The position numbers and the translations under genes were made by a program. 64,000 nt of DNA from positions 1 to 64,000 of the forward strand of contig PQAS01000050.1 in assembly GCA_003104905.1 (NCBI GenBank). The letters are read 5' to 3'. The stretch is from Candidatus Methanoperedentaceae archaeon. Its GTDB lineage: Archaea; Halobacteriota; Methanosarcinia; Methanosarcinales; Methanoperedenaceae. A model generated the notes under the pieces. It ran no database searches, was not told where the DNA came from, and worked only from the letters and a program-made list of their open reading frames with translations. Below, in pieces: positions 13,632-31,325 of this stretch. The first letter of the stretch is position 1; the number at the start of each line of letters is the position of its first letter.

Positions 13632-14901
13632 ATGCTTATCTCAGGCAATATGAAGCAAAATAGAAATGACCGGGGTAATCATCAGGCTAATTATTTAATT
13701 GCTGTAATACTATTTACCCTCGTTTCTTTTTCATCCCAGGCATATGGCACAGATAACATTTCTTCCCACGAACATAATGCTTCCATAAACACGACAAATT
13801 CATCTTTGCACATTCATCCGGATACGAATCTGTCCGCAGTTTTCCTCTTGAAAGATGATGCTGAACAAATACAAGTCAATATAGGGGATTTCGGAACAAA
13901 AAATCCTGTATCATCCCAGCCGCATGGTTTTCCGATAAGGTTTTTTAATGCAAATGCGCAAAATATCTCTTACGAAACAATCACTATTAATGCATCCTAT
14001 TCAGAAATGGAGTTAAATGGTACCGATGAAGACAAACTCTTGATTTATCGGCATGAACACAATAATTCAACATGGATAATGCTGCCCACAAAAGTGAATA
14101 AAGAGGGAAATACTCTGGAGGCAACAACCGATAAAAAATGAGTTCCATAACCTGACAGGACCTGATAAAGAAGTCCTAAAGCCGCGGATAAAAACAAATG
14201 ACACAGGAGTTTTATCGTGTGAATCCTGTCATAATGCTACAGGGAAGGAGAAATTTCACTACAGCGAGTTTCCGTCAGGAACAATCCAGTCGCCCGGCTG
14301 GACTAACTGGAGTAATGGCACAAGGGTGAATAAGTGCCAGGACTGCCATGTAAAAAACGGTGTAGAGCCGCCATTTAATGCCACTAATCTGACAAACCCC
14401 ATGCACAGGGCTGCAGCCAACTGCACCCTCTGCCACGGCGGGGATACTCCGATCGCCCTGCACGTTCTCCGGAAATCAAGCGGTGTTCCGTATGTTAAAG
14501 ATATAATCCTGGTTCCGCGCAAAAGTTATGAAGGTGATAATATTTCTATCAGCGTCCTGGCTGTGGCGGGGTGGGATGCCAGTATCACGAACATTGAGTA
14601 TTTTATTGACACTGCAGGAGAGGGGGGAAGCGGCAGGAACCTGACATTTGGAAAAGAGTTTTCCGACGGTCAGGTAAGGGAAGCTTTTGCAGATATGGAT
14701 ACCTCACGTCTGAAGGGAGGCACCCATATAGTTTACGTGCATGCCCGGGATTCAAAAGACAGGTGGGGAGATGTTTTGCCTGCCCCATTCGTGATAAATA
14801 AAAAGATTGACGCACTGTATTTGTTCAGGCACTGGGAACTGGTATTCCTGGTTGCGGGAGTATTGATATTGATTTATTTATTCAGGAAATCTGGCAAATA
14901 A
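13632..14901 (+). pseudogene. Membrane-anchored tri-heme c-type cytochrome, split by a frameshift
   Basis: Two frames form one protein of about 420 residues. The first (13632-14141) has a signal peptide (LIAVILFTLVSFSSQAYG) and a His-rich segment. It stops at TGA 14139 right after an A6 run. The +1 frame continues without a gap (EFHNLTGPDKEV) through three heme motifs, CESCH, CQDCH and CTLCH, an Ig-like region and a C-terminal membrane anchor (LVFLVAGVLILIYLF). Removing one A from the A6 run restores one frame, so this may be an assembly error, a true mutation or slippage. The preferred start may be ATG 13650. It is followed after 6 bases by a CcmF homologue. Confidence 0.7.
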
Positions 14902-14907
14902 GGTACT

Positions 14908-16821
14908 ATGAACACAGGGAACATACTTTTGCTAATAGGGCTAATTGCTTCGATTGCATCGATATTACTTTATAGACTCAATCGAAAACATTTCATATAT
15001 GGTCTGTACATGGCGTTTCTTTCTATTTCATCCGCAGTCCTGCTTCTTGTTTACTATTTTATTTCAAATGAGTTTCGCATAAATTATGTTTACATTTACA
15101 GTGGAAACCTGCCTGTAGCATATCGAATTGCAGCTATGTGGGCGGGGAAAGAGGGTATGCACCTGCTTCTGGCATGGGCTACCATAATGTGTGTTTTGTT
15201 ATTCTGTATGAAAAACCAGGAGAATAATGGATTCGCACGTAAAATATCTTACATAGCTCTGGGTATAGGAATTTTATTTTTATATATCACTCTTCTTGAT
15301 TCACCTTTTAGACCCACCCCTGGTGCATCAGAGGCAGGGGTTCTATCAGGTCAGGGTTTGAGTCCGAAGTTGATAAGCTTCTGGTTCCTGGTCCATCCCC
15401 CCCTGGTAGTAATGGCGTATGCAGCAGGCATTATTCTATTTGCCTCTGCAATAACCTACCTGTATTCAGGGGAAAAAGAGTGGGTCGGAAATGCAAGGCC
15501 ATGGGGGAGGGCATCATGGCTGCTATTGTCTCTTGCAATGGCGACAGGCGGCGCATGGGCGTATGAGATTGTAGGCTGGGAGGGCTTCTGGAAATGGGAC
15601 CCGGCCCAATCAGGCGCGCTCATGATATGGCTTGTCCTGACTGCTGCGCTGCATGCGATCACAAGGCACCATCGCAACTTCCGGGAGTATGATACAACCG
15701 CTCCGTTGTTATCGGCGTCAGTATTTATCCTCAGTCTCTATGTAATGTTCTTCTCACGAAAAGGAGTAAGGGGTTCAGATCACAATTTCCTGGGAAGCAA
15801 TATTTGGACTATATTGTTTGCCGCAATGTTAGTAACCTCAATTCTTACGTTATATTTACTCATGAGAAGAAAACCGGAAGAGTCCGGCTGGAAAATGACA
15901 CTGAAAAACCTGCACTCAGTTCGCACTTCATTCCATGCTGCTATTTTATTATTGTGTATGCTGGCTTTTGTTCCCTTCTGGGGCATCACTCATGAACTCA
16001 TCTCTGAGAAGGTTTTTGGAGATCAAATCTTAATTCCGAAAGAAGTCTATAATTTCTGGAGTTTTTTCATAATACTGGTGCTGATCGCGCTTACAGGGTA
16101 TTGCCTGCTTCAGGGTGCAGTAAAACCAAAAGTTCTAAAGTTTATTACGCTCCTGGCAGTCTTTATTGGCGCAGTGGCTTCATTTTATCCCGGGGCGCCT
16201 CTCCTTGACACTGCTTCGGAATTCTATCAACAATCCATGTTTCCTGGACAATCCATTGTATCTGTAATGTCATATATACCAATATCTCTTTTTGCAGCAG
16301 GTGGGATATTCTTCAAGTTTATTCATGGCAAACACAGGTTTTCACGAAGTAATACGGGTATAGGATTGATCCATACGGGATTTATTTTTATTGTGGTTGG
16401 AGCAATCTCATCTGCGTCTTTCAGTACGGAAAGTACTGTTGATTATACGCCTCAGGAACTAAATAATCCAGAGGGCATAGACGCTGTTTGGAGTGCAGCG
16501 ATAACTGATATCAGCACTGCTGTAAAAGATGATAATGGATCTGAACAGGTATTAGATTTAAATTTCTATAAAAATGGGAATCCGCACGGCTCAGGCACAG
16601 TCAGCATATCAAAAAGTGACCGTATCGGTTATTACCATAAAATCCTTGTTCACAGGACATTGTTTGCAGATATCCTTGTGCATTATGCAGAGGATGCATT
16701 GAATCCTATCCGTCTCTACACAAAAGTGATGCCGCTGGTAAATGTTCTCTGGGCCGGATCTATCTTAATGATTTTTGGTTTAGCTATCCTGATATGGCCG
16801 AAATTTTTCTTTAAGAAATAG
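14908..16821 (+). CDS. CcmF-family heme lyase subunit (divergent paralogue)
   Basis: A 637-residue protein with about 13-15 membrane segments. It has the CcmF/CcmC heme-binding WWD domain (VGWEGFWKWDPAQSGALMIW) and the flanking histidine in FLVHPPLVVMAYA. It lacks the exact WGGxEGSLLLW loop, having WAGKEGMHLLLAW. The C-terminal third holds a soluble beta-rich loop before the last helix, as in CcmF. It lies directly behind the tri-heme cytochrome, so it may serve that cytochrome. The main CcmF is at 32651. Confidence 0.82.
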   Translation: MNTGNILLLIGLIASIASILLYRLNRKHFIYGLYMAFLSISSAVLLLVYYFISNEFRINYVYIYSGNLPVAYRIAAMWAGKEGMHLLLAWATIMCVLLFCMKNQENNGFARKISYIALGIGILFLYITLLDSPFRPTPGASEAGVLSGQGLSPKLISFWFLVHPPLVVMAYAAGIILFASAITYLYSGEKEWVGNARPWGRASWLLLSLAMATGGAWAYEIVGWEGFWKWDPAQSGALMIWLVLTAALHAITRHHRNFREYDTTAPLLSASVFILSLYVMFFSRKGVRGSDHNFLGSNIWTILFAAMLVTSILTLYLLMRRKPEESGWKMTLKNLHSVRTSFHAAILLLCMLAFVPFWGITHELISEKVFGDQILIPKEVYNFWSFFIILVLIALTGYCLLQGAVKPKVLKFITLLAVFIGAVASFYPGAPLLDTASEFYQQSMFPGQSIVSVMSYIPISLFAAGGIFFKFIHGKHRFSRSNTGIGLIHTGFIFIVVGAISSASFSTESTVDYTPQELNNPEGIDAVWSAAITDISTAVKDDNGSEQVLDLNFYKNGNPHGSGTVSISKSDRIGYYHKILVHRTLFADILVHYAEDALNPIRLYTKVMPLVNVLWAGSILMIFGLAILIWPKFFFKK

Positions 16822-16926
16822 TAGGTACCCCTGGACATAAACAATAACATCTCAGGGGATGCCAAAATTCGCGAGACGTTTGCTCTTTATTTTTTGAAAG
16901 AACTGTGTCAATTTTTTTTCATTTTG

Positions 16927-16946
16927 TAAACCACAAACAGGATAAA
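16927..16946 (+). promoter_or_regulatory. Shared upstream motif, copy 3
   Basis: TAAACCACAAACAGGATAAA, 89 bases ahead of queD, the first gene of the 17-27 kb operon. An imperfect CCCCTG/CAGGGG stem (16828-16858) and T-rich runs before it may end transcription from the ccmF-like gene. Confidence 0.45.
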
Positions 16947-17015
16947 CCATTGTTATAATAATGCCATTGTTTCATTCCATTATAGGGATGGGATGTGGCA
17001 TAATGTGGTGGAAAA

Positions 17016-17429
17016 ATGATAATAAAAACAGAACGAAAGTTTTCGGCTGCCCATAGGCTTCCGAATTATGATGGTAAATGTTCAAGACTCCATGGTCACA
17101 CCTGGAAGGTAGAAGTTGCAATCGAAGGTGAGCCGGACGTAGAAACAGGAATGCTGATGGATTTTGTAGAAATCAAAAATATAATCGATGATCTGGATCA
17201 CCAGTATCTAAATGACTTTATTAATAATCCGACAGTTGAAAACATTGCTAAATACATTTTAGATAATCTTGCAAGATGCCAGCCTCGATCAGATTTTAAA
17301 ATCAGGGTGTGGGAGACAGAGGATTCTTTTGCAGAGGTTGATAATCAGGACAAAACAGCCACACAGGGAGAGATCAAAGAAAATATTGGAGAAATCATGG
17401 GGGAAAATTATGGAAAAATTACAGGTTAA
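17016..17429 (+). CDS. queD: 6-carboxy-5,6,7,8-tetrahydropterin synthase (QueD/PTPS family)
   Basis: A 137-residue T-fold enzyme using dihydroneopterin triphosphate. Zinc ligands H13 (SAAHRL), H26 and H28 (RLHGHTW) and the catalytic-type C22 (GKCSRLHGH) are present, as are DLDHQYLND and PTVENIAKYI and the C-terminal WETEDSFAEV. The last 25 residues are an extra charged tail that overlaps queE by 20 bases. With queE and folE next to it the pathway is 7-deazaguanine synthesis. Confidence 0.92.
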   Translation: MIIKTERKFSAAHRLPNYDGKCSRLHGHTWKVEVAIEGEPDVETGMLMDFVEIKNIIDDLDHQYLNDFINNPTVENIAKYILDNLARCQPRSDFKIRVWETEDSFAEVDNQDKTATQGEIKENIGEIMGENYGKITG

Positions 17430-18033
17430 CGACATATTCTACTCTATCCAGGGGGAAGGAAAGTATCTTGGCGAACCACAGATTTTTTTAAGATTGCAGG
17501 GCTGTAATTTCAGATGCAAGTGGTGTGATACAAGGGAAGCATGGAGTAGAAATGGTGGAGTAAGTATGGGGATGGATAAGATTATTGACACGCTCAAAAG
17601 GTTCAATTGCAGTAGAATATGTGTTACTGGCGGGGAGCCGTTACTCCAATCTGATAAATTGCTGCATTTGTTGGAGCAACTAAAAGAATTGAATTACAGT
17701 ATTGTCCTTGAAACAAATGGAAGCATGGTAGATAAAGAGATATTCGGTTTGGTGGATTGTGTTTCTGCAGATATGAAGCCCCCCTCCTCAGGTATGAAAA
17801 GCACAGATAAAATACTCAGTTCACTCAAGCACAAGGACCAATTAAAGATCATAGTGAAAGATAAAACGGATTTCGATTTTGCAAAGGAAGTTCTCAAGAG
17901 ATGCCAATGTATCTGCTACTTGCAGCCGGTCGGGGGCATTAATGCAAAACAACTGGCAAACTGGGTATTGAACGATCAGCTTGAGAATGTCAGGGTGACG
18001 ATTCAGCTTCACAAATTGATGGAGATGAAATAA
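17410..18033 (+). CDS. queE: 7-carboxy-7-deazaguanine synthase
   Basis: A 207-residue radical SAM enzyme that converts 6-carboxytetrahydropterin to 7-carboxy-7-deazaguanine. The [4Fe-4S] cysteines are C32, C36 and C39 (CNFRCKWC), preceded by the QueE hallmark YSIQGEGKYLGEPQIFLRL and followed by VTGGEPLLQ. ATG 17410 is chosen over the longer open frame because MEKLQVNDIFYSIQGEG begins the family. QueC is not in the window. Confidence 0.92.
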   Translation: MEKLQVNDIFYSIQGEGKYLGEPQIFLRLQGCNFRCKWCDTREAWSRNGGVSMGMDKIIDTLKRFNCSRICVTGGEPLLQSDKLLHLLEQLKELNYSIVLETNGSMVDKEIFGLVDCVSADMKPPSSGMKSTDKILSSLKHKDQLKIIVKDKTDFDFAKEVLKRCQCICYLQPVGGINAKQLANWVLNDQLENVRVTIQLHKLMEMK

Positions 18034-18581
18034 TGGATTCTGAATTGATCATGGGGGGAGTGAAAAATATTTTGAGAGCGATAGGTGAAGATCCTGAGCG
18101 AGAGGGGCTCATGGAGACCCCTAAGAGAATTGCACAGATGTATGAGGAAATATTCAATGGCTATAAAAATATGGATTTTAACCTTACTGTTTTTGATAAT
18201 CCCGGATACGATGAGATGATTACCGAATCAAATATCTATTTTTATAGCATGTGCGAACACCATATGCTGCCCTTCTTTGGCACGGCACATATCGGCTATA
18301 TCCCTAATGGAAAAATATTCGGTCTGAGCAAGCTGGGCAGAATTGTTGATTTTTACGCTAAAAAGTTGCAGCTTCAGGAAAGGATGACAACCGAGATTGC
18401 GGATTTCCTTATGGAAAAAATCGAACCGAAAGGATGCATTGTTGTGGTTGAAGCCGAGCATATGTGCATGAGTATGAGGGGCGTAAAAAAGCCAAATCAC
18501 AAAACCATTACCAGTGCTATAAGAGGCATTTTCAAAGAGACTAAAGGTTCCAGAGAAGAATTTTTGAGACTGATACGCTAA
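18033..18581 (+). CDS. folE: GTP cyclohydrolase I (FolE type)
   Basis: A 182-residue enzyme making dihydroneopterin triphosphate from GTP, the substrate of QueD. Zinc ligands C74, H77 (MCEHHMLP) and C145 (HMCMSMRG) and the GLSKLGRIVDFYAKKLQ signature are intact. The start overlaps the queE stop (TAATG). Most archaea use MptA/FolE2 instead, so a bacterial-type FolE suggests transfer or a dedicated pathway. Confidence 0.93.
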   Translation: MDSELIMGGVKNILRAIGEDPEREGLMETPKRIAQMYEEIFNGYKNMDFNLTVFDNPGYDEMITESNIYFYSMCEHHMLPFFGTAHIGYIPNGKIFGLSKLGRIVDFYAKKLQLQERMTTEIADFLMEKIEPKGCIVVVEAEHMCMSMRGVKKPNHKTITSAIRGIFKETKGSREEFLRLIR

Positions 18582-18614
18582 GGATACTGATTCATGGTAT
18601 GGGAGGAAACAAAA

Positions 18615-19748
18615 ATGACGTTCCTAGAATCGAGAGGAAAAATAAAAATGAAAGGTATGTCTGGAATGATGGCGGTTTTTATTCTGGGTATTGTCATGGC
18701 AATGCCTATTGCCGCAGCAACCCCGGACATGAAGGATTGTTACAAAGAGCATGGGCGATATGAGAAGATAGATAAAGCGATAGAGAAGGGGATAATATTT
18801 TTGGAGAGTAAACAGTCGGAATCGGGAGAATTTCCAGTGGAGTTTTCTTTAGACCCCAAAATGTCAAACATAGTGAATGATAGTATATTCAATCATACAA
18901 TTTTTGGATCAGCTTTTATTCTTCACGCTCTAACATATATAGAACCATCTTCACATGTAAATAACATAAGGAACAGGTCAATATCATTTCTTATGGAAAA
19001 TATGGAGCCTCCAGGTGTCTGGAGTTATGGTGGAAAATATTATTCTTCTCCGCCTGATAGTGACGATACAGCCCTTGTACTTTCAGCTTTAGAAGAGAAT
19101 GGGGTCGGAATTAATGATAGTTCCTTGCGGTTCATGCTGAATTTCAGGACAGATGAAGGGTTATTTCACACATGGATGATCGAAAACAGGTCGGATACAT
19201 CTGATCCACATTCTCACTTATATGCCTTAGATGATGTCGATGCCAGCGTAAATGCATATATTTTGTACGCTTATGCCTTGAATGATATGAGAATAAAAGA
19301 AGTAAGCCGATTTCTCAATAACTATACAAAGAATAAGTTATTTTTAAACGGTACTCCATATTATCCATCTCAATATGCTTTCATCTATCGGTTAACATTA
19401 GCCTATGCGGGTGGCTCAAAGGGATTAGATTCTGCCATTCCGACCGTAAGAAAATATCTGCTGGACAAACAGAAAACAGACGGAAGCTGGGGGAATAGCG
19501 TAGAGAATGGTTTTGCAGCAGTTTCACTTATTAATATCGGATATGAAGATGAAGCATTGGATAAAGCCATAAATCATATCGTGAGCACGCAAAAAGACGA
19601 TGGCAGCTGGCCAAGAGCTGTCTTTTATGTAGGGTGGCCATCAAGTTATGAATCCCATCTGGGGCCAGTGCCTTATTTCGGTTCTGAGGAACTTGCAACA
19701 GGTATATCCCTGGAAGCCCTGGGAAAATATAACAGTCAAAAAAAATAA
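18615..19748 (+). CDS. Secreted squalene-cyclase/prenyltransferase-fold protein with DSDDTA motif
   Basis: A 377-residue protein with a signal-like segment (MMAVFILGIVMAMPIAAA) and an alpha/alpha-barrel repeat region. It carries PDSDDTALVLSALEENG (about residues 147-163), which matches the DXDDTA acid motif of class II terpene cyclases such as squalene-hopene cyclase. QW-like repeats KTDGSWGN and KDDGSWPR are present. It is about half the length of squalene-hopene cyclase. ATG 18615 has a strong GGGAGG; ATG 18648 is an alternative. Catalysis on an isoprenoid outside the membrane is inferred. It could instead be a non-catalytic repeat protein. Confidence 0.65.
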   Translation: MTFLESRGKIKMKGMSGMMAVFILGIVMAMPIAAATPDMKDCYKEHGRYEKIDKAIEKGIIFLESKQSESGEFPVEFSLDPKMSNIVNDSIFNHTIFGSAFILHALTYIEPSSHVNNIRNRSISFLMENMEPPGVWSYGGKYYSSPPDSDDTALVLSALEENGVGINDSSLRFMLNFRTDEGLFHTWMIENRSDTSDPHSHLYALDDVDASVNAYILYAYALNDMRIKEVSRFLNNYTKNKLFLNGTPYYPSQYAFIYRLTLAYAGGSKGLDSAIPTVRKYLLDKQKTDGSWGNSVENGFAAVSLINIGYEDEALDKAINHIVSTQKDDGSWPRAVFYVGWPSSYESHLGPVPYFGSEELATGISLEALGKYNSQKK

Positions 19749-19770
19749 TTAAATAATTATCTAAAATATT

Positions 19771-21174
19771 ATGATCAGCACATACATCCAATCAGAAAGG
19801 CAAACCCCTACGACGGGTTTAACATCCGATGATCTCGGTCACCTCAGGTATTTCTATGAAATAGCTACCCAGCCTCTTGATAAATGGAACGGTTTTCTAT
19901 TCCCTGTAAATGGCGTGTTCTCATATGCGGTCAGAGTACAACTGTCATCTGCATCGTTTGCAGTAGCCGCTTTAGCCTCTAAAACACCTGCATATAGAGA
20001 AGTCTATGAGAAGATTATGGACTGCCTGATTCAGCGGATGCTTCAAAGGAGGACATGGAGTTACTGGAGATACTGTTCAAGAAATCTCGACCCCATATAT
20101 AAGAACAACATATGCTACAGCGCGTACTTATCAAACATGATCGGATTATTTGAGAAACTGACAAACAACGACAAATATGATGATAATTTCGACCTCATCT
20201 GGAACAAAAATACGAAATTCACATATAATCATCATACTTTATCTCAGAGGATATACGAGCAAATGGTTGAAAATCACCATCATGGAGTACAGTGCCAGCT
20301 GGAATTTGTATTCCAGGCTTGCAGCAATTTTGCAGCCCTGAGCAATATTCTAAATGATCAATTGCACGGTACAGATTATTCTTCCGTGAACCCTCAATGG
20401 AAAAAGTGGGCGCGGGAGAATTATGTAAATAGAAAACCGTTTTCTAAAGGGATTCTCTACTTTTCTTACGTGGAATTTCTCAGAAAGATGCTAAAATCGA
20501 GTGAAAATATAACCGATGTTGGGGTTCTGGCATTAGCCACACCAGTTGATTGGGATATCGTAATAGAACTATATCCGAGATTGGCAGAAATAGTAACCCA
20601 TGTGAGTGAAGAAAGTGCATTTATTAAAAGCAGACCTCTGGACGATTTCTTTGAAATTTCGAACGACTCCATGACGACGAGCTTCGGTTACCTTCTGGCA
20701 AGACAGATGGACGATGAAACTCTTGCTGAAAAATTCTTAAACTATGCGGACAGGGAATTCAATCCTGTATTGGAAAATGGGAAACTTTACTATAAGAATG
20801 TAAGAACTCAACTATTTACCACAAGTTTATTTGCGTGGGGAAAAGTGACCTCAGGCAGGCAGTTCGCAGACCTGGTTCAAACAAAACACGATAAAGCCTT
20901 CTTTGATCTTCCTTTTGTCTCTCATGTCGATTACCCGGATGTTTACCTGAAAAAAGCTGATTACAACAACGAATCGAAAGTTCTTACCGTTGTCATAACT
21001 CCGGGAGATTCCAGAGAGAATACTGAGCTCACCTGCTCTAATATAACCAGTATTGGAAGCGTGCAAAAGGACGGTGTGATTTACGATTCATATAAATTTG
21101 AAAATGAATATGGCAGATTGAAAATCTACACAGGTTTAGAATCCGGGCATACTTTCGAGATAGCATGTCAATAG
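19771..21174 (+). CDS. Linalool dehydratase/isomerase-like (LinD) protein
   Basis: A 467-residue protein resembling the LinD (alpha/alpha)6-barrel enzymes. Visible blocks are RTWSYWRYCSRNLDPIYKNN, then YSAYLSNMIGLFEKL, then TYNHHTLSQRIYEQM, and GVQCQLEFVFQACSNF. The two cysteines (C175 and C184) are nine apart, the same spacing as the catalytic C171/C180 of the Castellaniella enzyme as I recall it. No signal peptide or membrane span is obvious, so it is probably cytosolic, unlike its secreted neighbour. A small beta domain ends the protein. Substrate unknown; a terpenoid alcohol is plausible. Confidence 0.7.
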   Translation: MISTYIQSERQTPTTGLTSDDLGHLRYFYEIATQPLDKWNGFLFPVNGVFSYAVRVQLSSASFAVAALASKTPAYREVYEKIMDCLIQRMLQRRTWSYWRYCSRNLDPIYKNNICYSAYLSNMIGLFEKLTNNDKYDDNFDLIWNKNTKFTYNHHTLSQRIYEQMVENHHHGVQCQLEFVFQACSNFAALSNILNDQLHGTDYSSVNPQWKKWARENYVNRKPFSKGILYFSYVEFLRKMLKSSENITDVGVLALATPVDWDIVIELYPRLAEIVTHVSEESAFIKSRPLDDFFEISNDSMTTSFGYLLARQMDDETLAEKFLNYADREFNPVLENGKLYYKNVRTQLFTTSLFAWGKVTSGRQFADLVQTKHDKAFFDLPFVSHVDYPDVYLKKADYNNESKVLTVVITPGDSRENTELTCSNITSIGSVQKDGVIYDSYKFENEYGRLKIYTGLESGHTFEIACQ

Positions 21175-21185
21175 AGAAGGAAAAT

Positions 21186-21536
21186 ATGAAAATTTTTATT
21201 GAAATCAATACAAGGTTCGAAGGAATACACAGGTGGGATAATGCGCCTGAAGCTGTTTTTTTCTTAAGGAACGCCCACAGGCATGAATTTCATGTACAAG
21301 CGAGGATACAGGCATATCATGATGATAGAGAACTTGAATTCATCCTTGTGAAAAAGCAGATCGAGATGTGGGTTAGAGCTTTGTCTTTTGATCTTGGGCA
21401 GAAAAGCTGTGAAATGCTCGCAAAAGAGCTGGCAGCTTTCTTGCTGGAAAAATACGGGAACGACAAGCAGCGGCATGTGGAAGTCAGGATTTCCGAGGAT
21501 GGCGAGAACGGTGCCTTGGTGCTATATGATGCTTAG
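21186..21536 (+). CDS. QueD-like T-fold protein
   Basis: A 116-residue protein with the tunnelling-fold pattern FEGIHRWDNAPEAVFFLRN, HRHEFHV, HDDRELEFI, SCEMLAKELAAFLLEKYG and VRISEDGENGA. H15, H31 and H33 align with the PTPS zinc histidines. Similar short proteins occur in phages and are often labelled 6-pyruvoyl tetrahydropterin synthase; the true activity is unknown. The start at 21186 has GAAGGA upstream. It is a second T-fold enzyme in the same operon as queD. Confidence 0.6.
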   Translation: MKIFIEINTRFEGIHRWDNAPEAVFFLRNAHRHEFHVQARIQAYHDDRELEFILVKKQIEMWVRALSFDLGQKSCEMLAKELAAFLLEKYGNDKQRHVEVRISEDGENGALVLYDA

Positions 21537-21547
21537 AGGAGGACTTG

Positions 21548-22564
21548 ATGCAACTTTTCGATACGCTTAGAAGATATAAGATGTTGCTTGATATCAAAAA
21601 AGTCCTGGATATGAGCTCCGGCTTCCATAAGCTCTGGCATATTTCAACCGGCGTTGAACTTGGTATTTTTGATAACCTGGTAAAAAAACCCATGGGTGCA
21701 CAGGAATACGCTGCTATATATGATCTGGACACAGAACTTGTCAATGCATGGATGGAAATCGGAGCATCCTATGGGCTGCTTAAGAAACGGGGTGAGGTGT
21801 ACTCAAACACAGCATTTACCGAAACTTATCTGTGCATGCATTCAAGACTCTGTTTTGCTAATTTCCCATGGGGAATAACAAGTATGCACAGCAAATTGTT
21901 CGAAAAACTGCCCGAATTGATGAGGAACAAAAAGAGGTATCAGATCTCCCCGGACCTTGCACTGAAAGTGGTGCAAGGAACCCGCTTCCTGGATAACTGG
22001 GGGCTTGATGTGCTATTAACGCTTCCGGTCCATGAGGATAATTGCAGGATTCTGGACATAGGATGCGGCCAGGGATATTATCTAATCGAGCTGGCAAAAA
22101 GAAACCAGACCTTAACCGGGACCGGGGTAGAACTTCAGGAGAGTGTATGTACAGAGGTCAATGGACGCATTAAGAATGCGGGACTTCAGGATAGGTTATC
22201 TGTACTTCATGGAAATGCAAAAGAGATAGATCTTGGCGAGAATTATGATATCTGCCTTATTAATAATATGTTATATTATCTCGAAAAGGAGGAAGCAATG
22301 GAATTATTGAAAAGGGCTAAAAAGGCATTAAAGCCGGATGGGATGATAGCGGTACAACAGCCGATTTTGACAGGAAATGTCGATGTAGGTTTTGTACACT
22401 GGGTTATACTAATTTTCGGAGGAATGGGTCTTCTTCCAAAGGGAGATTTGATGAACTTATTGAAACATGAAGGCTTTGACCAGGTTACGGCAAAAAAGAT
22501 AGAACCAACAGGACAGTGGCTTTATTTCATAGGGATAAATGAAAAAATAAAGAGGAAACTATAA
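21548..22564 (+). CDS. Class I SAM-dependent methyltransferase (O-methyltransferase-like)
   Basis: A 338-residue protein with a helical/winged N-terminal dimerisation domain (HKLWHISTGVELGIFDNLVK) typical of small-molecule O-methyltransferases. The Rossmann SAM site RILDIGCGQGYYLIELA is at about residues 167-183, followed by NNMLYYLEKEEA and a C-terminal ALKPDGMIAVQQP. GAGGAGG precedes ATG 21548. The substrate is unknown; position suggests the product of the neighbouring enzymes. Confidence 0.85.
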   Translation: MQLFDTLRRYKMLLDIKKVLDMSSGFHKLWHISTGVELGIFDNLVKKPMGAQEYAAIYDLDTELVNAWMEIGASYGLLKKRGEVYSNTAFTETYLCMHSRLCFANFPWGITSMHSKLFEKLPELMRNKKRYQISPDLALKVVQGTRFLDNWGLDVLLTLPVHEDNCRILDIGCGQGYYLIELAKRNQTLTGTGVELQESVCTEVNGRIKNAGLQDRLSVLHGNAKEIDLGENYDICLINNMLYYLEKEEAMELLKRAKKALKPDGMIAVQQPILTGNVDVGFVHWVILIFGGMGLLPKGDLMNLLKHEGFDQVTAKKIEPTGQWLYFIGINEKIKRKL

Positions 22565-23427
22565 TGATTGAATATGGTTTGAAGATTCCTGGATTGATCC
22601 TTATTATTATATCTCTTGTCGGGATTTCAGCGGCATCGGCTGAAAGTGAGAGAATATCAAACGGGAGTCAACAGGATTTTGTATTCTCAAAGATATATGA
22701 TGAAGGGTTCGGCGCCAGTTCGGAAGGCTTCAAGTTGATTTTAAGAACCTACGAGCAGCGTCAGGATACACGCTTTAAACCTTTTCTTACTGATATAGAG
22801 TACATCTTAATGAATAGAGATATTGTTATTTATTCAAAAAGGATGAAGCAGATCCCACTATCAGTGGGTAATGAAGGGATTGTTGTACTCAACCACCAGC
22901 CGGATGTTGCGCTGGAAGAAGGGAATAATTATACAGGTATTGTAAAGATTTACATTTACAACAAAGGTGCTCCTGAATATTATCTTACTACAAGCTCAAA
23001 TTTCATAGCCAAAAGCGATGCTGATATAACTGATGTTTTTAGCGACGATATAGGTGCAAGTGTGACCATTAAAAGCATATCCATGGTTCCCCTTAATGCT
23101 AAGATCATCTTCACGCTGAAACAGGATAACAGGATTATAGAAACCAGGGAGACGGCAGCCCCATCGATTATGTCCAATGATAAAGAAAAAACAGTGAACG
23201 TTCTCTGGAAAAATAGATTGAGTGAAGGGATTTATATGACATCGGTACTTTTGAAGGGAACGGATATCTCAGTTAATTATGATAAGATCTTTACTGTTGA
23301 GAAAAAGACACAGGTGACAGCTCCTGTAAGAGCAGCCCAGACAGGCAGCAGTCATAGCCTTCCGGGTTTTTCTTCAGTGCTTGCAGCCGTAGCGATATTT
23401 GCGTTTGCTTACAGATGGAGGAAATAA
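22564..23427 (+). CDS. Secreted PGF-CTERM surface protein
   Basis: A 287-residue protein with an N-terminal signal (GLILIIISLVGISAASA), a beta-rich extracellular body and a C-terminal LPGFSSVLAAVAIFAFAY plus RWRK. The tail is the PGF motif, membrane segment and basic end of archaeosortase-processed proteins. The start overlaps the methyltransferase stop (TAATG). It may be the surface partner of the transporter encoded by the next genes. Confidence 0.75.
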   Translation: MIEYGLKIPGLILIIISLVGISAASAESERISNGSQQDFVFSKIYDEGFGASSEGFKLILRTYEQRQDTRFKPFLTDIEYILMNRDIVIYSKRMKQIPLSVGNEGIVVLNHQPDVALEEGNNYTGIVKIYIYNKGAPEYYLTTSSNFIAKSDADITDVFSDDIGASVTIKSISMVPLNAKIIFTLKQDNRIIETRETAAPSIMSNDKEKTVNVLWKNRLSEGIYMTSVLLKGTDISVNYDKIFTVEKKTQVTAPVRAAQTGSSHSLPGFSSVLAAVAIFAFAYRWRK

Positions 23428-23431
23428 AGAA

Positions 23432-24610
23432 GTGCATTTAGATGATATTCGCTCTGCTCTGTTCTATTCAAAAAAGGACATCTTTAAAAATAAAAAAATC
23501 TTTTTGTTTATAACTGCAGCTATAATATTTGCAACTGCAAACATCATTATCATTAATGGATTCATGGATGGGATGATAAGGGATTTAGCTGATAACACGG
23601 TTGAATCGTCCCTGGGGCATTTAAATATCTACCCTGATCAGGAAGAAAGGTTTATAGAGGGTCTGGGGATAAAAGAAGAGGAGCTAAATGCATTAAAGGA
23701 CGTAGAGGCATATTCCCCCAGGGTCTCTGCAAGTGGTGTATTGTCGTTCAAGGAATTATCTGCTTCTGCAAACATACTGGCTCTTGATCCTGATAAAGAG
23801 CGCGGGGTAACAAAACTTCTGGATAAACTTGATAGTGGTACTGCTATAAACTCGAATGATGGAAATGCCATCCTGGTTTCCTATCGCCTCGCTGAGGATC
23901 TAAAACTTGATACAGGGGATGAAGTGACTCTTGCTTTTGAAAACGGGAATATGAAGGAATATATGATCAAAGGAATAATTCGCACAGGTTCCCAGGAATT
24001 CGACAGTTCGACTGTAGTTATGGCCCTCAATGAGGCCAGGAGACATCTTGATATCGAAAACAGAGCATCTTCCATACTTGTAAAGCTCTCTGATAAAGAG
24101 ATTGCCGGGGATTACAAACCGATACTGATGCAAAACCTTGGCATCAAGAACGTAAAGACGTGGAAAGAGGAACTCGAATATTTAATGAGTTTCACAGAGG
24201 CATACAAGAGTTTTTCCAGTATCATTTCTGCAGTGGGATTAATCGCTGCATCAATCTCAGTTGGGATTATCGTCTATGTAAATGTGATTCATAAAAAAAG
24301 ACAGATAGGGATTATGAAGGCACTGGGGGCGAAAGATTCCTTTATCTTCACGGTTTTCATCATGGAGGCGCTGCTCTTTGGCTTGATAGGTGTTCCTGCG
24401 GGCGACATTGTCGGGTATCTTGCCATTAAACATATGGAAGCAAATCCTTTCTATGATGCCATTATGATGACATGGATAAGTGCAAGGTTCGGAAACTACC
24501 TTCTCTATAATGCAACAGCAGTTTCTTTTGCGGCAACGTTATTAGCGGGAATATATCCCGCCATCAAAGCAAGCAGGATAGATATCATAAAGGCGATATG
24601 GGGAGGGTAA
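23432..24610 (+). CDS. FtsX/MacB-like ABC transporter permease, first copy
   Basis: A 392-residue permease with one N-terminal helix (IFLFITAAIIFATANIIII), a large extracytoplasmic domain (about 45-250) and three C-terminal helices. HKKRQIGIMKALGAKDSFI is the conserved coupling region of LolC/MacB permeases. GTG 23432 has GGAGG nine bases upstream. It overlaps the next gene (TAATG), a tandem paralogue with the shared INGFMDG motif. Confidence 0.85.
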   Translation: MHLDDIRSALFYSKKDIFKNKKIFLFITAAIIFATANIIIINGFMDGMIRDLADNTVESSLGHLNIYPDQEERFIEGLGIKEEELNALKDVEAYSPRVSASGVLSFKELSASANILALDPDKERGVTKLLDKLDSGTAINSNDGNAILVSYRLAEDLKLDTGDEVTLAFENGNMKEYMIKGIIRTGSQEFDSSTVVMALNEARRHLDIENRASSILVKLSDKEIAGDYKPILMQNLGIKNVKTWKEELEYLMSFTEAYKSFSSIISAVGLIAASISVGIIVYVNVIHKKRQIGIMKALGAKDSFIFTVFIMEALLFGLIGVPAGDIVGYLAIKHMEANPFYDAIMMTWISARFGNYLLYNATAVSFAATLLAGIYPAIKASRIDIIKAIWGG

Positions 24611-25764
24611 TGTCAGCAGTCTTATTCTATGCAAGAAAAGATTCAGAAAAAAATAAAAGGATGTTCGTATTTATTATCATTGCGATTGCCCTTTCCACGG
24701 CAAATATCATTATCATAAATGGATTCATGGATGGAATTACCGACGATTTTGTGGAAAAGACTATGGAGACATCTTCAGGTCATCTCAATATATATCCCGA
24801 TGAGCAGAACAGGTATATAGAGGGGCTGGGCGTAAAGGAACAGAAGCTCGATACTTTTGATAATGTGATTGCTTATTCTCCAAGAATCAATGCAGGCGGA
24901 GCTTTATCATATAAAGATAAATCCAAATCAATACGAATTCTGGCGGTGGACCCTATTAAAGAGAACAGGGTAACAAACATTCTGGGCAAAATCGATTCGG
25001 GTGAAACCCTTGATGTCAATGACAGGAACGGAGTTTTAATCTCGTATCGGCTGGCTGATGAGCTGAAAGCCAGGGTTGGGGATGAAACGGTTTTAGTGTT
25101 TGAAAAAGGCAATACAAAGGTCTTCAGGATAAAAGGGATATTCCGTTCCGGCATGGCACTGGATACAAATACGGTCATACTGGATTTTGAGAGTGCAGCA
25201 GAGCAACTCAATCTGAGCAATAAAGCATCGGTAATCCTTGTCAGGCTCTCTGATATAGCCCTTACGGGGCAATATAAAGATACTATATCCCGGGAACTTG
25301 GAGCTATAAAAGTAAAAGAATGGAAACAAGAGGTTGAATCTATATTAAGTTCTACTGCGACCTTTAAAGAGATTAGCTCCGCAATAAACGCGATTGGATT
25401 ATTTGCATCCGCAGTTTCGGTTGGGGTGATACTGTACATAAATATCCTTCACAGGCGAAGACAGATAGGGATAATGAAAGCAGTTGGCATGAAGGATTTC
25501 CAGATATTATCCGTTTACATCATCGAGGCGATGATTATGGGAACAATAGGTATTATAGCCGGAGATATGCTCGGGTATTTAGGCACAAAATACCTGGAAG
25601 CACATCCATTCTCTGATCCTATCCTCGGGTCACTGAGTCCAAGGTTCTACACATATATCCTTTATGATGCTTCGCTGGTGACCATGGCAACTGTAATTCT
25701 TGCTTCAACGTACCCGGCGCTGATGGCAGGCAGAATGAACATCATAAAAGCAATCTGGGAGTAA
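24610..25764 (+). CDS. FtsX/MacB-like ABC transporter permease, second copy
   Basis: A 384-residue tandem paralogue of the preceding permease with the same order: helix 1, extracytoplasmic domain, three helices. Shared stretches include IIIINGFMDG, LNIYPDE and RRRQIGIMKAVGMKD. The two probably form a LolCE-like heterodimer. Confidence 0.85.
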   Translation: MSAVLFYARKDSEKNKRMFVFIIIAIALSTANIIIINGFMDGITDDFVEKTMETSSGHLNIYPDEQNRYIEGLGVKEQKLDTFDNVIAYSPRINAGGALSYKDKSKSIRILAVDPIKENRVTNILGKIDSGETLDVNDRNGVLISYRLADELKARVGDETVLVFEKGNTKVFRIKGIFRSGMALDTNTVILDFESAAEQLNLSNKASVILVRLSDIALTGQYKDTISRELGAIKVKEWKQEVESILSSTATFKEISSAINAIGLFASAVSVGVILYINILHRRRQIGIMKAVGMKDFQILSVYIIEAMIMGTIGIIAGDMLGYLGTKYLEAHPFSDPILGSLSPRFYTYILYDASLVTMATVILASTYPALMAGRMNIIKAIWE

Positions 25765-25770
25765 TTGGAA

Positions 25771-26436
25771 ATGGACATAATTAAGACAGGTAATCTTAAA
25801 AAGAGTTACATGCTTGGCAAGGTCGAGGTTAAAGCGCTCAATGGCGTCGATGTCTCAATTCAGAAGGGAGAATTCGTTGCCATTATGGGCCCCTCAGGCT
25901 GTGGGAAATCAACCTTCCTCAACATGGTCGGCATGCTTGATATCCCGACATCAGGAGAAATATATGTTGAAGGCAACGATGTGACTGGAATGAGCAGCAA
26001 TAAAAGAGCAGAGTACAGACTCAGGCACATAGGCTTCATATTCCAGTTTTTTAACCTTTTTAATGAGCTTACAGCTATTGAAAATATAATGTTTCCGATG
26101 ATGCTGAACAGAATGCCGAATTACAGGAAAAATGCGCAAGAGCTGCTAAACCTTGTTGGTCTTGGCGACAGGATCCACCATTTGCCTTCAGAACTTTCGG
26201 GTGGACAGCAGCAGCGTGTTACAATTGCAAGAAGTCTTGCCAATAGTCCGAAGATACTCCTGGCTGATGAGCCGACTGGCAACCTGGATACAAAATCATC
26301 GAAAGAGATCATCGAGCTTTTCAGGAAATTGAACCTTGAGAGAGGACAGACGATCGTGATGGTAACGCATAGCCAGGAAATAGGCGAAAAAGCGGACCGG
26401 ATAATACACTTCAGGGATGGTATAATTGAAAAGTAG
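25771..26436 (+). CDS. ABC transporter ATPase (LolD/MacB type)
   Basis: A 221-residue ATPase with Walker A GPSGCGKST, signature LSGGQQQR, Walker B ILLADEPTGNLD and switch VMVTHSQE. This belongs to the lipoprotein/macrolide exporter class that pairs with FtsX-type permeases. It completes the two-permease transporter. These systems move hydrophobic or lipidated cargo or transmit force rather than import. Confidence 0.9.
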   Translation: MDIIKTGNLKKSYMLGKVEVKALNGVDVSIQKGEFVAIMGPSGCGKSTFLNMVGMLDIPTSGEIYVEGNDVTGMSSNKRAEYRLRHIGFIFQFFNLFNELTAIENIMFPMMLNRMPNYRKNAQELLNLVGLGDRIHHLPSELSGGQQQRVTIARSLANSPKILLADEPTGNLDTKSSKEIIELFRKLNLERGQTIVMVTHSQEIGEKADRIIHFRDGIIEK

Positions 26437-26599
26437 AGTTATTGTCTCATTCGTTTTAATATTTTCTGCTGTCATGCTGTATTTGTCCTTAAAGACGCCT
26501 GCAACAGAGGTAATAGCTGCAGGATTCTCAGTACTTTTACTGCTGTCAGGTATTATCATTCATCCTGTACTGCTTGGCATTCAGAATAAGCAGGGGTGA
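26426..26599 (+). CDS. Small two-helix membrane protein
   Basis: A 57-residue frame from TTG 26426 (MKSRVIVSFVLIFSA) to TGA 26597-26599 with two hydrophobic segments. It overlaps the ATPase end by 11 bases and stops 4 bases before the UbiA start, which argues that it is real and co-translated. No family recognised. It may be a transporter or prenyltransferase accessory. Confidence 0.6.
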   Translation: MKSRVIVSFVLIFSAVMLYLSLKTPATEVIAAGFSVLLLLSGIIIHPVLLGIQNKQG

Positions 26600-26603
26600 G
26601 AGA

Positions 26604-27491
26604 TTGAAAAAAGATATTAAAAATATTATTATACTGGGTTCTCCGCATTATATACTTTTAGATATGTCCACAATATTTGGAACTGCTCTGTTCTCTCTGG
26701 GGAGATTGCCTGATTTGAACGAATGGATAATGCTCTTTGTTCTTTTCATTACAGGCTCAATAATCATGAACGGCGTTGATGTTGCAGGACATTATACTGA
26801 CAGCGATGTGGATAAATACCAGAAACCAGAAAATCCCCTCCAGAAAGGAGAGATAAATCAATTTACAATGAAACGAGCCGTCAAATATATATATATTTTG
26901 GCGATTATTTCCTTAATTACTATGTCAGTCCTGTCAGAAAACCTAACCCTTATACTGGTGGCAGTAGCAGGATGGTTCTTTGGTCACACGTATGTTACGT
27001 ACCCTATAAGGGCAAGGGCTAACTGGCTTCTTGCTTCTCCCTGGTTTTCTTCAGGACTGGCGATTATTCCTCTTTCCGGATGGGTCCTTTTTAGACAAGA
27101 AGCATCGATATATACAGCAGCCATTTTCCTGCTTTTTTTCTTTCCATTAATGGGCGAGTTCTTGACGAAAGAACTTAATCATTTAGAATATGATTCAAAA
27201 GGTGGACTTATAACACTGCCTATGGTAATTGGCAATAAATTAACAGGAATTTTAGGGGTTTTTTTTAACTTATTTTCATTTATCATACTAATCCCTATTT
27301 TTTACTTTAAAGGATTTTTTAATGAGGTTACGATTATTCTCATGTTAGCTCCCTCCCTGTTAGCAACTATTGCCTCGGCCCAGTTAATCAGGCATCCTAT
27401 AAAAAATGCCGGCAGTGCGCAGGCCTGGATCAAAATAGCTATCGTGTGGATCGGGTATGCCCTTTTAATCTCTTCACTGATTAATATATAA
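26604..27491 (+). CDS. UbiA-family prenyltransferase
   Basis: A 295-residue integral membrane protein with about eight helices. It has a first acidic motif NGVDVAGHYTDSDVDKYQKP (diverged from NDxxDxxxD) and a second in KELNHLEYDSKGGLITLP. These bind the isoprenyl diphosphate through magnesium. TTG 26604 is preferred because GGTGA lies just upstream. It differs from typical GGGP or quinone prenyltransferases in motif 1, so the acceptor is unknown. It ends the 17-27 kb operon. Confidence 0.8.
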   Translation: MKKDIKNIIILGSPHYILLDMSTIFGTALFSLGRLPDLNEWIMLFVLFITGSIIMNGVDVAGHYTDSDVDKYQKPENPLQKGEINQFTMKRAVKYIYILAIISLITMSVLSENLTLILVAVAGWFFGHTYVTYPIRARANWLLASPWFSSGLAIIPLSGWVLFRQEASIYTAAIFLLFFFPLMGEFLTKELNHLEYDSKGGLITLPMVIGNKLTGILGVFFNLFSFIILIPIFYFKGFFNEVTIILMLAPSLLATIASAQLIRHPIKNAGSAQAWIKIAIVWIGYALLISSLINI

Positions 27492-27524: not shown

Positions 27525-28697
27525 TCATTTTATACACCTGGCAACCTTTTCCATGATGGTATGATCATTACCGAACTTGCATATAGAATCGCAGTGTGTA
27601 CAGAGCTCAGAGAACAAAATATATGATATTTTATTACATTCTTTCGATATAAGGGATGGTCTTTTCAATTGAGCTACAATTTCTTTCTCTCTTTGTTCGG
27701 GGGCAACTAAATAGAGAGAGATATTTTCTGAATCTGGAATGGTGAGCGCCAGATCGGTCAGGCGCAGGATACCGGAATATATGGATGTGCTTTTTTCTAC
27801 CTCATAGGCACTAACAAGTTTATTAGTGATTTTTTCAAACCAGATAACATCAATAAGACCAATAGTCTTCTTCACATCGTCCCTGGCTTCTATCTCAGGA
27901 AATTCCGGTAAACAAATAAATGAGAATTTTTCGTTGTTATATGATTTTGTTCGATCATTGGACGCCACAATAACATTATAGCCAAGAGATTTTCCAATTT
28001 TCAATAATAAATATTGGACTTTCGTATGCATGTTTTCTTCTTCGATCTCAGCCTCTATTCCCTTTTTCCTGTCTTGAATAAGTTTTTTTCTCTTTTGTTC
28101 CTCTTTCTCAATTATATTGTCAGCATTTCCACCCACAACTTTCCCTACACCGATATCGAAAAGCAATCCCGAAATTGCCCCCAGATCCTTTGATAATAGA
28201 TTCTTATATTGGTCATTTACCTGCAAAATCGTATCCCGCATCTCCAAATAGTCATTCCATGAACCAAGCTTTTTCTTTTCTCCAAATAATTCATTAATAT
28301 TTTGATTCGATAGTTTTATGATTTCCTTATAAATTTGTTCCTCTTTATTGGCTTTGAGGCACGATTCGAGGAATTGGCCAAAAATAGATTTATTTATATT
28401 GTTCTCATAGATATCCGGTATCCTGAGTTTTGGTTTCCAGTAAAATGGATGAGCTGCTCCTTCGAAAACTTGTTTTTGTTCAGTTATGGCGGTTAAAACC
28501 ACTTCGAGGGAAGAGCCTTTAAAATCATTTGGAAAAACATTCTCCTTGATGTCATTTATGACCTGCTCAACACCTCTTCGAATAGCTCCGAAGGCTTTTA
28601 ATCTCTGATCATTATCAATGAACCATGTGTTATACACACTTTCCGGATAATTTTTATATTCCTGTATAATATTCTGGATTTTTTCCCGGTCACCCAT
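27525..28697 (-). CDS. PD-(D/E)XK nuclease-like protein, orphan
   Basis: A 390-residue protein. The N-terminal two thirds are helical with a coiled-coil-like charged segment (EKEEQKRKKLIQDRKKG). The C-terminal part has the pattern IDVIWFEKITNKLVSAYEVE followed by KSTSIYSGILRLTDL, the D-x(n)-E-x-E/K arrangement of restriction-endonuclease folds that recognise self from foreign DNA. No methyltransferase or helicase lies beside it. A stand-alone defence or repair nuclease is the best guess. Confidence 0.5.
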   Translation of the reverse strand: MGDREKIQNIIQEYKNYPESVYNTWFIDNDQRLKAFGAIRRGVEQVINDIKENVFPNDFKGSSLEVVLTAITEQKQVFEGAAHPFYWKPKLRIPDIYENNINKSIFGQFLESCLKANKEEQIYKEIIKLSNQNINELFGEKKKLGSWNDYLEMRDTILQVNDQYKNLLSKDLGAISGLLFDIGVGKVVGGNADNIIEKEEQKRKKLIQDRKKGIEAEIEEENMHTKVQYLLLKIGKSLGYNVIVASNDRTKSYNNEKFSFICLPEFPEIEARDDVKKTIGLIDVIWFEKITNKLVSAYEVEKSTSIYSGILRLTDLALTIPDSENISLYLVAPEQREKEIVAQLKRPSLISKECNKISYILFSELCTHCDSICKFGNDHTIMEKVARCIK

Positions 28698-28804: not shown

Positions 28805-30061
28805 CTATTGATCATACCTTATCGCATCCACAGGCCGCAACTTAGCCGCATGCCTGGCCGGAATTATTCCGGATAGTATGCCTATAACAAGCGAGAAGAA
28901 AAGTGCAAACAAAATCGTTCCCGTGGTAATCGTGGCTCTCATATCTCCCCCGATACCAAGTGCCTGTATCCCCAGATAAGGGATAAGCAGGGAAATAGCC
29001 GCGCCAAATATTACACCTATGATCCCTCCCACAAATCCGAATATTCCCGATTCAATAAGGAAGAGTTTCATGATTTCCTGTTCACCTGCACCTATTGCTT
29101 TCAAGAGCCCTATCTGTTTTGTGCGTTCCATGACCGACATGAACATTGTATTGGCTATGCCAATCGCTCCTACAATAAGCGATACGGCAGCGATCGCACT
29201 TAAGAAAAGTGATAAAGTTTCGGTCACGCTGCTCATCTGTTCCCTAATAAGGGCAGACGCAATGACCGTAAAATCCTTTGTTCGCGGATTTACCTGTCTG
29301 CTACTCATAAGCTTCTGTTCGATATCTGCTTTGATATATTCAACAAGGGATGCATCTGAGGCTTTAATGACTACGGATGTAAACTGGTTATTTGACACTT
29401 TTTCCGTTATAACGTCTCTTGCCAGATCAGCAGGCATATAAATACCTGTGTCACTGCCCCCCCCAAATCCTCCGGATTGCTTGAGAATACCTACAACCCT
29501 GAAATTTTTATTTCCTATGGTGATCGGACGGTTAAGAGTCATGGATTGAAGAAATGTCCCGTGGGCAAGATTATAGCCCACAACAATAGAATTTGAATCT
29601 CCTGCCTGCAGATATCTTCCATCATCTATTCCCGTAGTATCCATCAGTCTCCAGATAGAAGTATCGACTCCGGTAACAGAAACCACGGTTTTCTCATTAT
29701 CGTACTTGAGGTCAGCTTTGCCTGAAACGAGCCCGTTAACATACATGACGCCCGGTACCTGTTTGATCACCTTGATATCTTTATCCGTGAGGTTGATAGA
29801 AGAACTTGTACTAACAGACCTGTCAGTATGCATTTCGCTGTGCACACCCGTAGCTCTGAAATATCCAGGGATAACGGTTATTATATCAGCTCCGAAGCTG
29901 CCAAGCCTCTGCTGCACATTTTCCTGCATTCCCTGGCCTATGGATATAATGGCAACAACCGAGGCCACTCCTATTATTACACCAACTATGGTTAGCCAGC
30001 TTCTCATCCTGCTTTTCCTCACATGGGAAAGAGAGAGCAGGAAGATATCCAGGAGTCTCAT
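28805..30061 (-). CDS. MacB-family ABC transporter permease
   Basis: A 418-residue permease with helix 1 (TIVGVIIGVASVVAIISIG), a MacB periplasmic core domain (about 45-270) and three C-terminal helices. MERTKQIGLLKAIGAGEQEI is the coupling motif. It overlaps the end of the upstream CARDB-type gene (ATGA) and forms an ATPase / secreted-domain / permease operon. Confidence 0.9.
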   Translation of the reverse strand: MRLLDIFLLSLSHVRKSRMRSWLTIVGVIIGVASVVAIISIGQGMQENVQQRLGSFGADIITVIPGYFRATGVHSEMHTDRSVSTSSSINLTDKDIKVIKQVPGVMYVNGLVSGKADLKYDNEKTVVSVTGVDTSIWRLMDTTGIDDGRYLQAGDSNSIVVGYNLAHGTFLQSMTLNRPITIGNKNFRVVGILKQSGGFGGGSDTGIYMPADLARDVITEKVSNNQFTSVVIKASDASLVEYIKADIEQKLMSSRQVNPRTKDFTVIASALIREQMSSVTETLSLFLSAIAAVSLIVGAIGIANTMFMSVMERTKQIGLLKAIGAGEQEIMKLFLIESGIFGFVGGIIGVIFGAAISLLIPYLGIQALGIGGDMRATITTGTILFALFFSLVIGILSGIIPARHAAKLRPVDAIRYDQ

Positions 30062-31317: not shown

Positions 31318-31325
31318 ATTTTCAC

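Follow-up and report, generated by a model that had tools for sequence, protein, structure and literature searches.

Positions 17016–27491 of the window (the whole 64,000-nucleotide stretch analysed, from contig PQAS01000050.1 of the Candidatus Methanoperedentaceae archaeon assembly GCA_003104905.1) hold 13 genes that very probably form one functional unit, in which queD, queE and folE, encoding the pathway to 7-carboxy-7-deazaguanine (CDG), are joined to genes for terpene-type enzymes and an exporter. The operon arrangement is more than chance, because the whole block recurs at a different location in a second genome, that of the relative Methanosarcinales archaeon isolate METP1, where all 13 genes are kept in identical order with 82–94% protein identity. 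We put at roughly 55% the probability that the operon makes and exports a predicted metabolite that is deazaguanine-derived and isoprenoid-modified. The features are:

16886–17015, +, upstream region common with METP1 and presumed promoter/leader; start of the 90.4% identical block (METP1 contig C77)
17016–17429, +, queD, 6-carboxy-tetrahydropterin synthase; PF01242 1e-32, TIGR03367 above cut-off, Cys and HGH motifs in the sequence
17410–18033, +, queE, 7-carboxy-7-deazaguanine synthase, a radical S-adenosylmethionine (SAM) protein with CX3CX2C; TIGR04349 5e-48 (below cut-off), PF04055
18033–18581, +, folE, GTP cyclohydrolase I (type IA); PF01227 5e-74, TIGR00063 above cut-off
18615–19748, +, cyc, predicted secreted single-domain squalene-cyclase-like protein with DXDD (D148, D150, D151); PF13243 2e-7, signal-like N-terminal segment by eye
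19771–21174, +, ldi, linalool dehydratase/isomerase-family (LinD-like) protein, no evident signal peptide; PF18566 8e-45, PDB Ldi 2e-23
21165–21536, +, second T-fold protein, phrog_17812 family (2e-20); confident AlphaFold model, Foldseek best match E. coli QueD
21548–22564, +, SAM methyltransferase with O-methyltransferase dimerisation domain; PF13649 2e-15, PF08100 3e-8
22564–23427, +, surface protein with C-terminal PGF motif, putative exporter partner; no Pfam or NCBIfam family, homologues precede FtsX-FtsX-ABC genes across the genus
23432–24610, +, FtsX/MacB-type permease 1; PF12704 and PF02687
24610–25764, +, FtsX/MacB-type permease 2; PF12704 and PF02687
25771–26436, +, ATP-binding cassette (ABC) ATPase of the LolD/MacB/FtsE group; PF00005 4e-36, TIGR02211 below cut-off
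26426–26599, +, small predicted membrane protein, 57 aa; no family, 84% conserved in METP1, dN/dS (ratio of non-synonymous to synonymous substitution rates) 0.37
26604–27491, +, ubiA, membrane protein of the UbiA superfamily, its diphosphate motifs partly degenerate; PF01040 1e-19, DGGGP synthase 4e-8

As the initial annotation had it, all 13 genes lie on a single strand in the order listed, with gaps of at most 33 bp or overlaps. The junctions are −20 bp for queD/queE (with the queE start placed at the corrected ATG at 17410), −1 for queE/folE, +33 for folE/cyc (+12 if an alternative upstream cyc ATG at 18594 is used), +22 for cyc/ldi, −10 for ldi/T-fold, +11 for T-fold/methyltransferase, −1 for methyltransferase/PGF, +4 for PGF/FtsX1, −1 for FtsX1/FtsX2, +6 for FtsX2/ABC, −11 for ABC/small protein and +4 for small protein/ubiA. 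Upstream, 194 bp separate ccmF from queD; downstream, a convergent gene lies 33 bp past the ubiA stop at 27491. The family names proposed from the letters alone were borne out by Pfam and NCBIfam domain searches, with the qualification that the QueE and LolD matches fall below NCBIfam cut-offs and the second T-fold protein below that of PTPS. An Rfam scan of the whole window gave no match.

Nucleotide comparison placed the block common to the window and METP1 C77 at 16886–27490, with 90.4% identity over 10,634 aligned bases; it begins about 130 bp 5′ of queD and stops at the ubiA stop codon. On C77, the block stands between genes that, read by eye, encode a P-type ATPase on the upstream side and an amidohydrolase-like protein on the downstream side. 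The flanks in the window (the ccmF side, 14130–16773, and the downstream side from 27525) both map to another METP1 contig, C10, on which multicopper-oxidase-like and PGF-type surface-protein genes (names by eye) stand between the two matches. A third genome, G018, matches C10 at 93.9% over 7.4 kb, taking in ccmF and the multicopper-oxidase-like and PGF-type genes. The block thus has the same limits as the operon, and the flanks sit on another METP1 contig, so that the 13 genes were moved, gained or lost as a unit. The dN/dS values of 0.10–0.37 for every one of the 13 genes indicate purifying selection. The block comparison and the short gaps thus uphold the earlier proposal of one operon, and the synteny check suggested with it, which could have shown genes that are never neighbours elsewhere, found all 13 together in METP1. 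The LinD-like gene occurs in only two of 100 relatives, this archaeon and METP1, and among 394 genomes drawn from across the phylum the only PF18566 match was in this genome. Recent transfer between the two archaea need not be invoked, as the identity of the block lies within the range of its flanks (85.6–92.8%).

Functionally, the two halves are tied together most strongly by the gene for the second T-fold protein, a deazaguanine-associated gene whose start overlaps ldi by 10 bp. Its 123-residue product scores 14.7 bits against PTPS (cut-off 22.4) and matches phrog_17812, for which the database gives the function as unknown. The AlphaFold model has a predicted local distance difference test (pLDDT) score of 93.3, and the best Foldseek matches in the PDB are E. 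coli QueD structures (template-modelling score about 0.7–0.77), which assigns the protein to the T-fold; profile comparison with QueD gave a probability of 91%. H22, H38 and H40 occupy the alignment positions of the zinc-binding histidines of QueD and do not vary among 50 sequences of the phrog_17812 family; S81-C82-E83 and E111 are likewise invariant in the family alignment, which has no conserved Cys at the position of the QueD catalytic Cys before HGH. The protein is thus most likely, judging by its predicted structure and alignment, a T-fold enzyme that acts on a pterin or deazaguanine substrate and is not QueD: the T-fold of the initial annotation stands, and a redundant QueD gives way to a distinct phage-associated family. 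Searched as a profile against the PDB, the T-fold alignment returned only a weak bacterioferritin match (E 0.01), which was judged to be chance.

Within the collections searched, among which bacterial chromosomes were not included, the phrog_17812 family is otherwise restricted to phages, and it was found on no plasmid and in none of 294 other genomes of the phylum. It is present in 27 phage records. In nine of ten phage regions read, folE lies within 8 kb of the T-fold gene, most of them also having queE or queD; in the tenth, from a PA5oct-like phage, it is queE that lies within that distance. At least 583 IMG/VR contigs encode the family, and among the best 80 IMG/VR loci (many incomplete), folE, queD or queE lies within 6 kb of the T-fold gene in 63; none of the 80 has a relative of the cyclase, LinD-like protein, methyltransferase or UbiA protein near it. 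A step in the 7-deazaguanine chemistry of phages that has yet to be characterised could well be carried out by this family. For the archaeal protein, decarboxylation of CDG is our preferred guess. A phage CDG decarboxylase, DpdL, was reportedly predicted by Cui et al. in 2023 and is a possible lead to the function of phrog_17812.

QueD and FolE score above NCBIfam cut-offs, with Pfam matches also above cut-off, and QueE is hit by five QueE models without reaching the cut-off of any (best 5e-48). FolE, QueD and QueE are therefore all present at the family level, which supports the earlier suggestion that they would produce CDG. Neither of the preQ0/archaeosine enzymes QueC and TGT is encoded among the 13 genes, and without QueC, CDG is expected as the end of this branch. 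Outside the cluster (on contig C50 of 59 in this 2.9-Mb assembly), the same genome encodes GCYH-IB (GCHY-1) on C21, a second archaeal-type QueD on C54 and QueC on C53. Four of 45 relatives have FolE-I. Two are the cluster genomes; in the others it lies on a phage-like contig of G006 and on a fragment of G025 with unrelated context, both likely contaminants and rejected as cluster relatives. Because the housekeeping GCYH-IB, QueD and QueC are separate and FolE-I is otherwise absent from the sampled relatives, the FolE, QueD and QueE copies of the cluster look dedicated. Block comparison, embedded T-fold gene and redundancy with housekeeping genes together support the link between the deazaguanine and terpene halves that had at first been only surmised. 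The phage-like region in G006 (L023; C66:9000-28000), binned with a Methanoperedens genome, carries polymerase, folE, queE, queD and helicase genes and is either an archaeal virus or contamination. A viral origin of the whole deazaguanine set is unsupported, as the cluster FolE resembles bacterial copies carried by large replicons (53%) more closely than those of named phages (≤42%).

The terpene half begins with the cyclase-fold protein, which scores 30.5 bits against SQHop_cyclase_C (cut-off 26.1). Its DXDD residues (D148, D150 and D151) are invariant, and QW-type repeats are present, in 11 Methanoperedens sequences. In the PDB, a profile of the family matches the class II terpene cyclases SHC at 3e-20, drimenol synthase at 3e-16 and AstC at 6e-10, and the DXDD aligns with the catalytic motif of SHC; unlike these enzymes, the archaeal protein appears to be secreted and is a single domain of about 340 aa with no HAD domain. 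The cyc gene stands near a surface protein, FtsX and ABC module in nine of ten other Methanoperedens loci, and a UbiA gene is close to it in three (L184, L186 and L188) and 2.2 kb away in a fourth (L187); chance estimates for the cyc–UbiA and cyc–ABC proximities use assumed gene counts and are rough. At L188:5737–7908, in G008, an alkaline phosphatase domain precedes the cyclase-fold domain in one fused protein, an arrangement reminiscent of the drimenol synthases, themselves phosphatase–cyclase fusions; the neighbours of the gene are two UbiA genes, an amine-oxidase/CrtI-like gene and flavin adenine dinucleotide (FAD) and Fe–S oxidoreductase genes. These recurrent cyclase–UbiA–exporter neighbourhoods suggest that Methanoperedens holds a wider, unexplored range of exported isoprenoid products.

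The exporter consists of two MacB_PCD/FtsX permeases and a LolD-type ATPase, as in LolCDE and MacB exporters, from which it differs in being archaeal and in having a PGF-motif partner protein. Release of lipoproteins is not implied, because the ATPase scores 245.4 bits against the LolD equivalog model TIGR02211 (cut-off 307.75). The partner, labelled a PGF-CTERM protein at first reading, has a C-terminal PGF motif by eye and matches no NCBIfam model at E≤0.1; its homologues stand before FtsX-FtsX-ABC genes genus-wide. A LolCDE-like transporter is thus present as described, as part of a genus-wide module that accompanies many gene sets and so gives no indication by itself of the cargo. PGF-FtsX-FtsX-ABC modules were seen at L180, L181, L182, L183, L185, L186 and L190–L196, sometimes with cyc, and often stand behind genes for an ArsA-type ATPase and a small Cys-containing protein.

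The LinD-like protein belongs to the Ldi family (PF18566, 154.1 bits against a cut-off of 26.1), and its C175 and C184 align with both catalytic cysteines of the PDB Ldi structure (2e-23). Compared with the linalool dehydratase/isomerase (LDI) of Castellaniella defragrans, with which it shares the PF18566 domain and both cysteines, it has a longer C-terminus and no evident signal peptide. Of the catalytic set (His, Tyr, Asp and two Cys; active-site residues as in PMC12455561), the Asp and Tyr positions fall beyond the alignment. No LDI relatives were found in viral contigs, phages or, beyond METP1, the genome_contigs collection. The plasmid homologues are distant (21–24%), and two of their regions that were read have neither deazaguanine nor UbiA neighbours. 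The methyltransferase combines O-methyltransferase dimerisation and methyltransferase domains (Pfam) and has no relatives on plasmids. The UbiA protein scores 71 bits against a Pfam cut-off of 34.2 and keeps one DxxxD.

In the pathway that we favour, FolE, QueD and QueE would convert GTP to CDG, and the second T-fold protein would act on CDG or a CDG precursor, perhaps decarboxylating it to 7-deazaguanine. The UbiA, LinD-family and methyltransferase proteins would add and remodel an isoprenoid part, UbiA by prenylation or by some other isoprenoid linkage, and add a methyl group. Export would fall to the FtsX/ABC module with the PGF protein, and cyclisation of the isoprenoid part, outside the membrane, to the secreted DXDD protein. 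A more specific version, which we hold less likely than not, is that the exported product is a 7-deazaguanine meroterpenoid: the T-fold protein would decarboxylate CDG, UbiA would prenylate the C7 so freed, and cyclisation, isomerisation and methylation of the chain would follow.

Several observations weigh against this proposal. The LinD-like protein has Tyr at the position of the active-site His129, which qualifies its initial label: the two catalytic cysteines are kept and the histidine is not. In both genomes, UbiA motif I reads GHYTDSDVD in place of NDxxDxxxD, with Asn replaced by Gly, and motif II reads HLEYD in place of DxxxD, with one Asp replaced by His. Because the diphosphate motifs are partly degenerate, prenyl transfer is the least secure step; of the prenylated, cyclised, methylated and transported product first envisaged, the DXDD cyclase, LinD-family enzyme, methyltransferase and exporter are there in kind, and prenylation is the part in doubt. 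Five cyc loci (L180–L183 and L185) have no UbiA gene nearby and, where readable, an ArsA-type ATPase gene instead. The exporter module occurs with unrelated gene sets elsewhere in the genus, and the complete cluster is found in two genomes only, both of them fragmented assemblies.

The alternative that survives best, though we consider it unlikely, is isoprenoid or lipid modification of the envelope, in which a cyclised membrane isoprenoid is made and placed, and the deazaguanine or pterin serves as a cofactor or head group and not as the scaffold. It is consistent with the LolCDE/MacB type of the exporter and with the recurrence of cyc beside UbiA genes, flavin and Fe–S oxidoreductases and FtsX/ABC modules in loci that lack deazaguanine genes, but it leaves unexplained why three dedicated deazaguanine genes and a T-fold protein are held in strict synteny. 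The occurrence of cyc and the exporter elsewhere in the genus without queD, queE and folE, along with the commonness of FolE, QueD and QueE as housekeeping enzymes, would fit two unrelated operons that happen to abut, queD-queE-folE serving archaeosine or folate and a terpene/exporter operon following. This is improbable: all 13 genes are together at two genomic places with block ends at operon ends, the genome already has GCYH-IB, QueD and QueC, and the second half itself contains a T-fold gene of the deazaguanine-linked kind. Slightly less probable again is that the deazaguanine genes serve nucleic-acid modification, yielding a phage-like modified DNA or RNA base, with the remainder an unrelated envelope system. 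The block has neither a transglycosylase gene nor a phage structural gene, and the methyltransferase, LinD-like and UbiA genes would have no obvious role, even though the T-fold family is otherwise phage-only here and some phages that carry it also carry a DpdA/TGT-like gene. A terpene catabolic operon, which the LinD family and the catabolic role of LinD in Castellaniella might suggest, is very improbable given the lost catalytic His, the absence of dehydrogenases and CoA ligases from the block and the presence of UbiA, methyltransferase, FolE/QueD/QueE and exporter genes.

Known 7-deazapurine products include bases of tRNA and DNA, antibiotics of the nucleoside type and one protein modification. 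A cluster in which the CDG pathway meets terpene-type enzymes would widen that range to a new type of molecule, made by uncultured organisms with a central place in methane cycling. Among the nearest described systems is the tubercidin cluster of Streptomyces tubercidicus, in which FolE, QueD and QueE homologues lead through CDG to a nucleotide and a proposed UbiD-family decarboxylation (PMC6112128). Both systems have FolE, QueD and QueE without QueC, and tubercidin is a secreted, decarboxylated deazapurine product (PMC6112128). The tubercidin cluster has a phosphoribosyltransferase, a UbiD-family decarboxylase and a GMP-reductase homologue, none of which the archaeal operon has; the operon instead has T-fold, UbiA, LinD-like, cyclase and methyltransferase genes. 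Phage 7-deazaguanine DNA-modification sets (PMC6884629) likewise bring FolE, QueD and QueE together with the phrog_17812 family, but they are paired with DpdA-like transglycosylases, kinases or DNA genes and have no terpene genes, whereas the archaeal block has no transglycosylase. A full-text literature search found no described cluster that joins FolE-QueD-QueE with terpene-type enzymes, and returned the tubercidin paper (PMC6112128) alone. The parts are all of known kinds, and the whole is best placed among 7-deazapurine biosynthetic clusters, with a product class that may be new. If the meroterpenoid version were true, few if any dedicated routes to secondary metabolites would have been described earlier from anaerobic methanotrophic archaea, and the T-fold family, which hundreds of phage contigs encode, would gain a function. 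The operon connects this phage family, so far without annotation, to small-molecule biosynthesis, where its activity can be tested outside phage DNA modification.

The genome as a whole, with multihaem cytochromes, ccmF and many FtsX/ABC modules, is like Methanoperedens. Just downstream of the operon, 28805–31994 on the minus strand encodes another MacB-type exporter, unrelated to the first and made up of an FtsX permease, a surface protein and an ATPase. The gene between, at 27525–28697 and convergent with ubiA, has a 205-aa version on METP1 C10, and a full-length homologue lies upstream of another PGF-FtsX-ABC module (G006:C124); this locus may be a site of cluster swapping.

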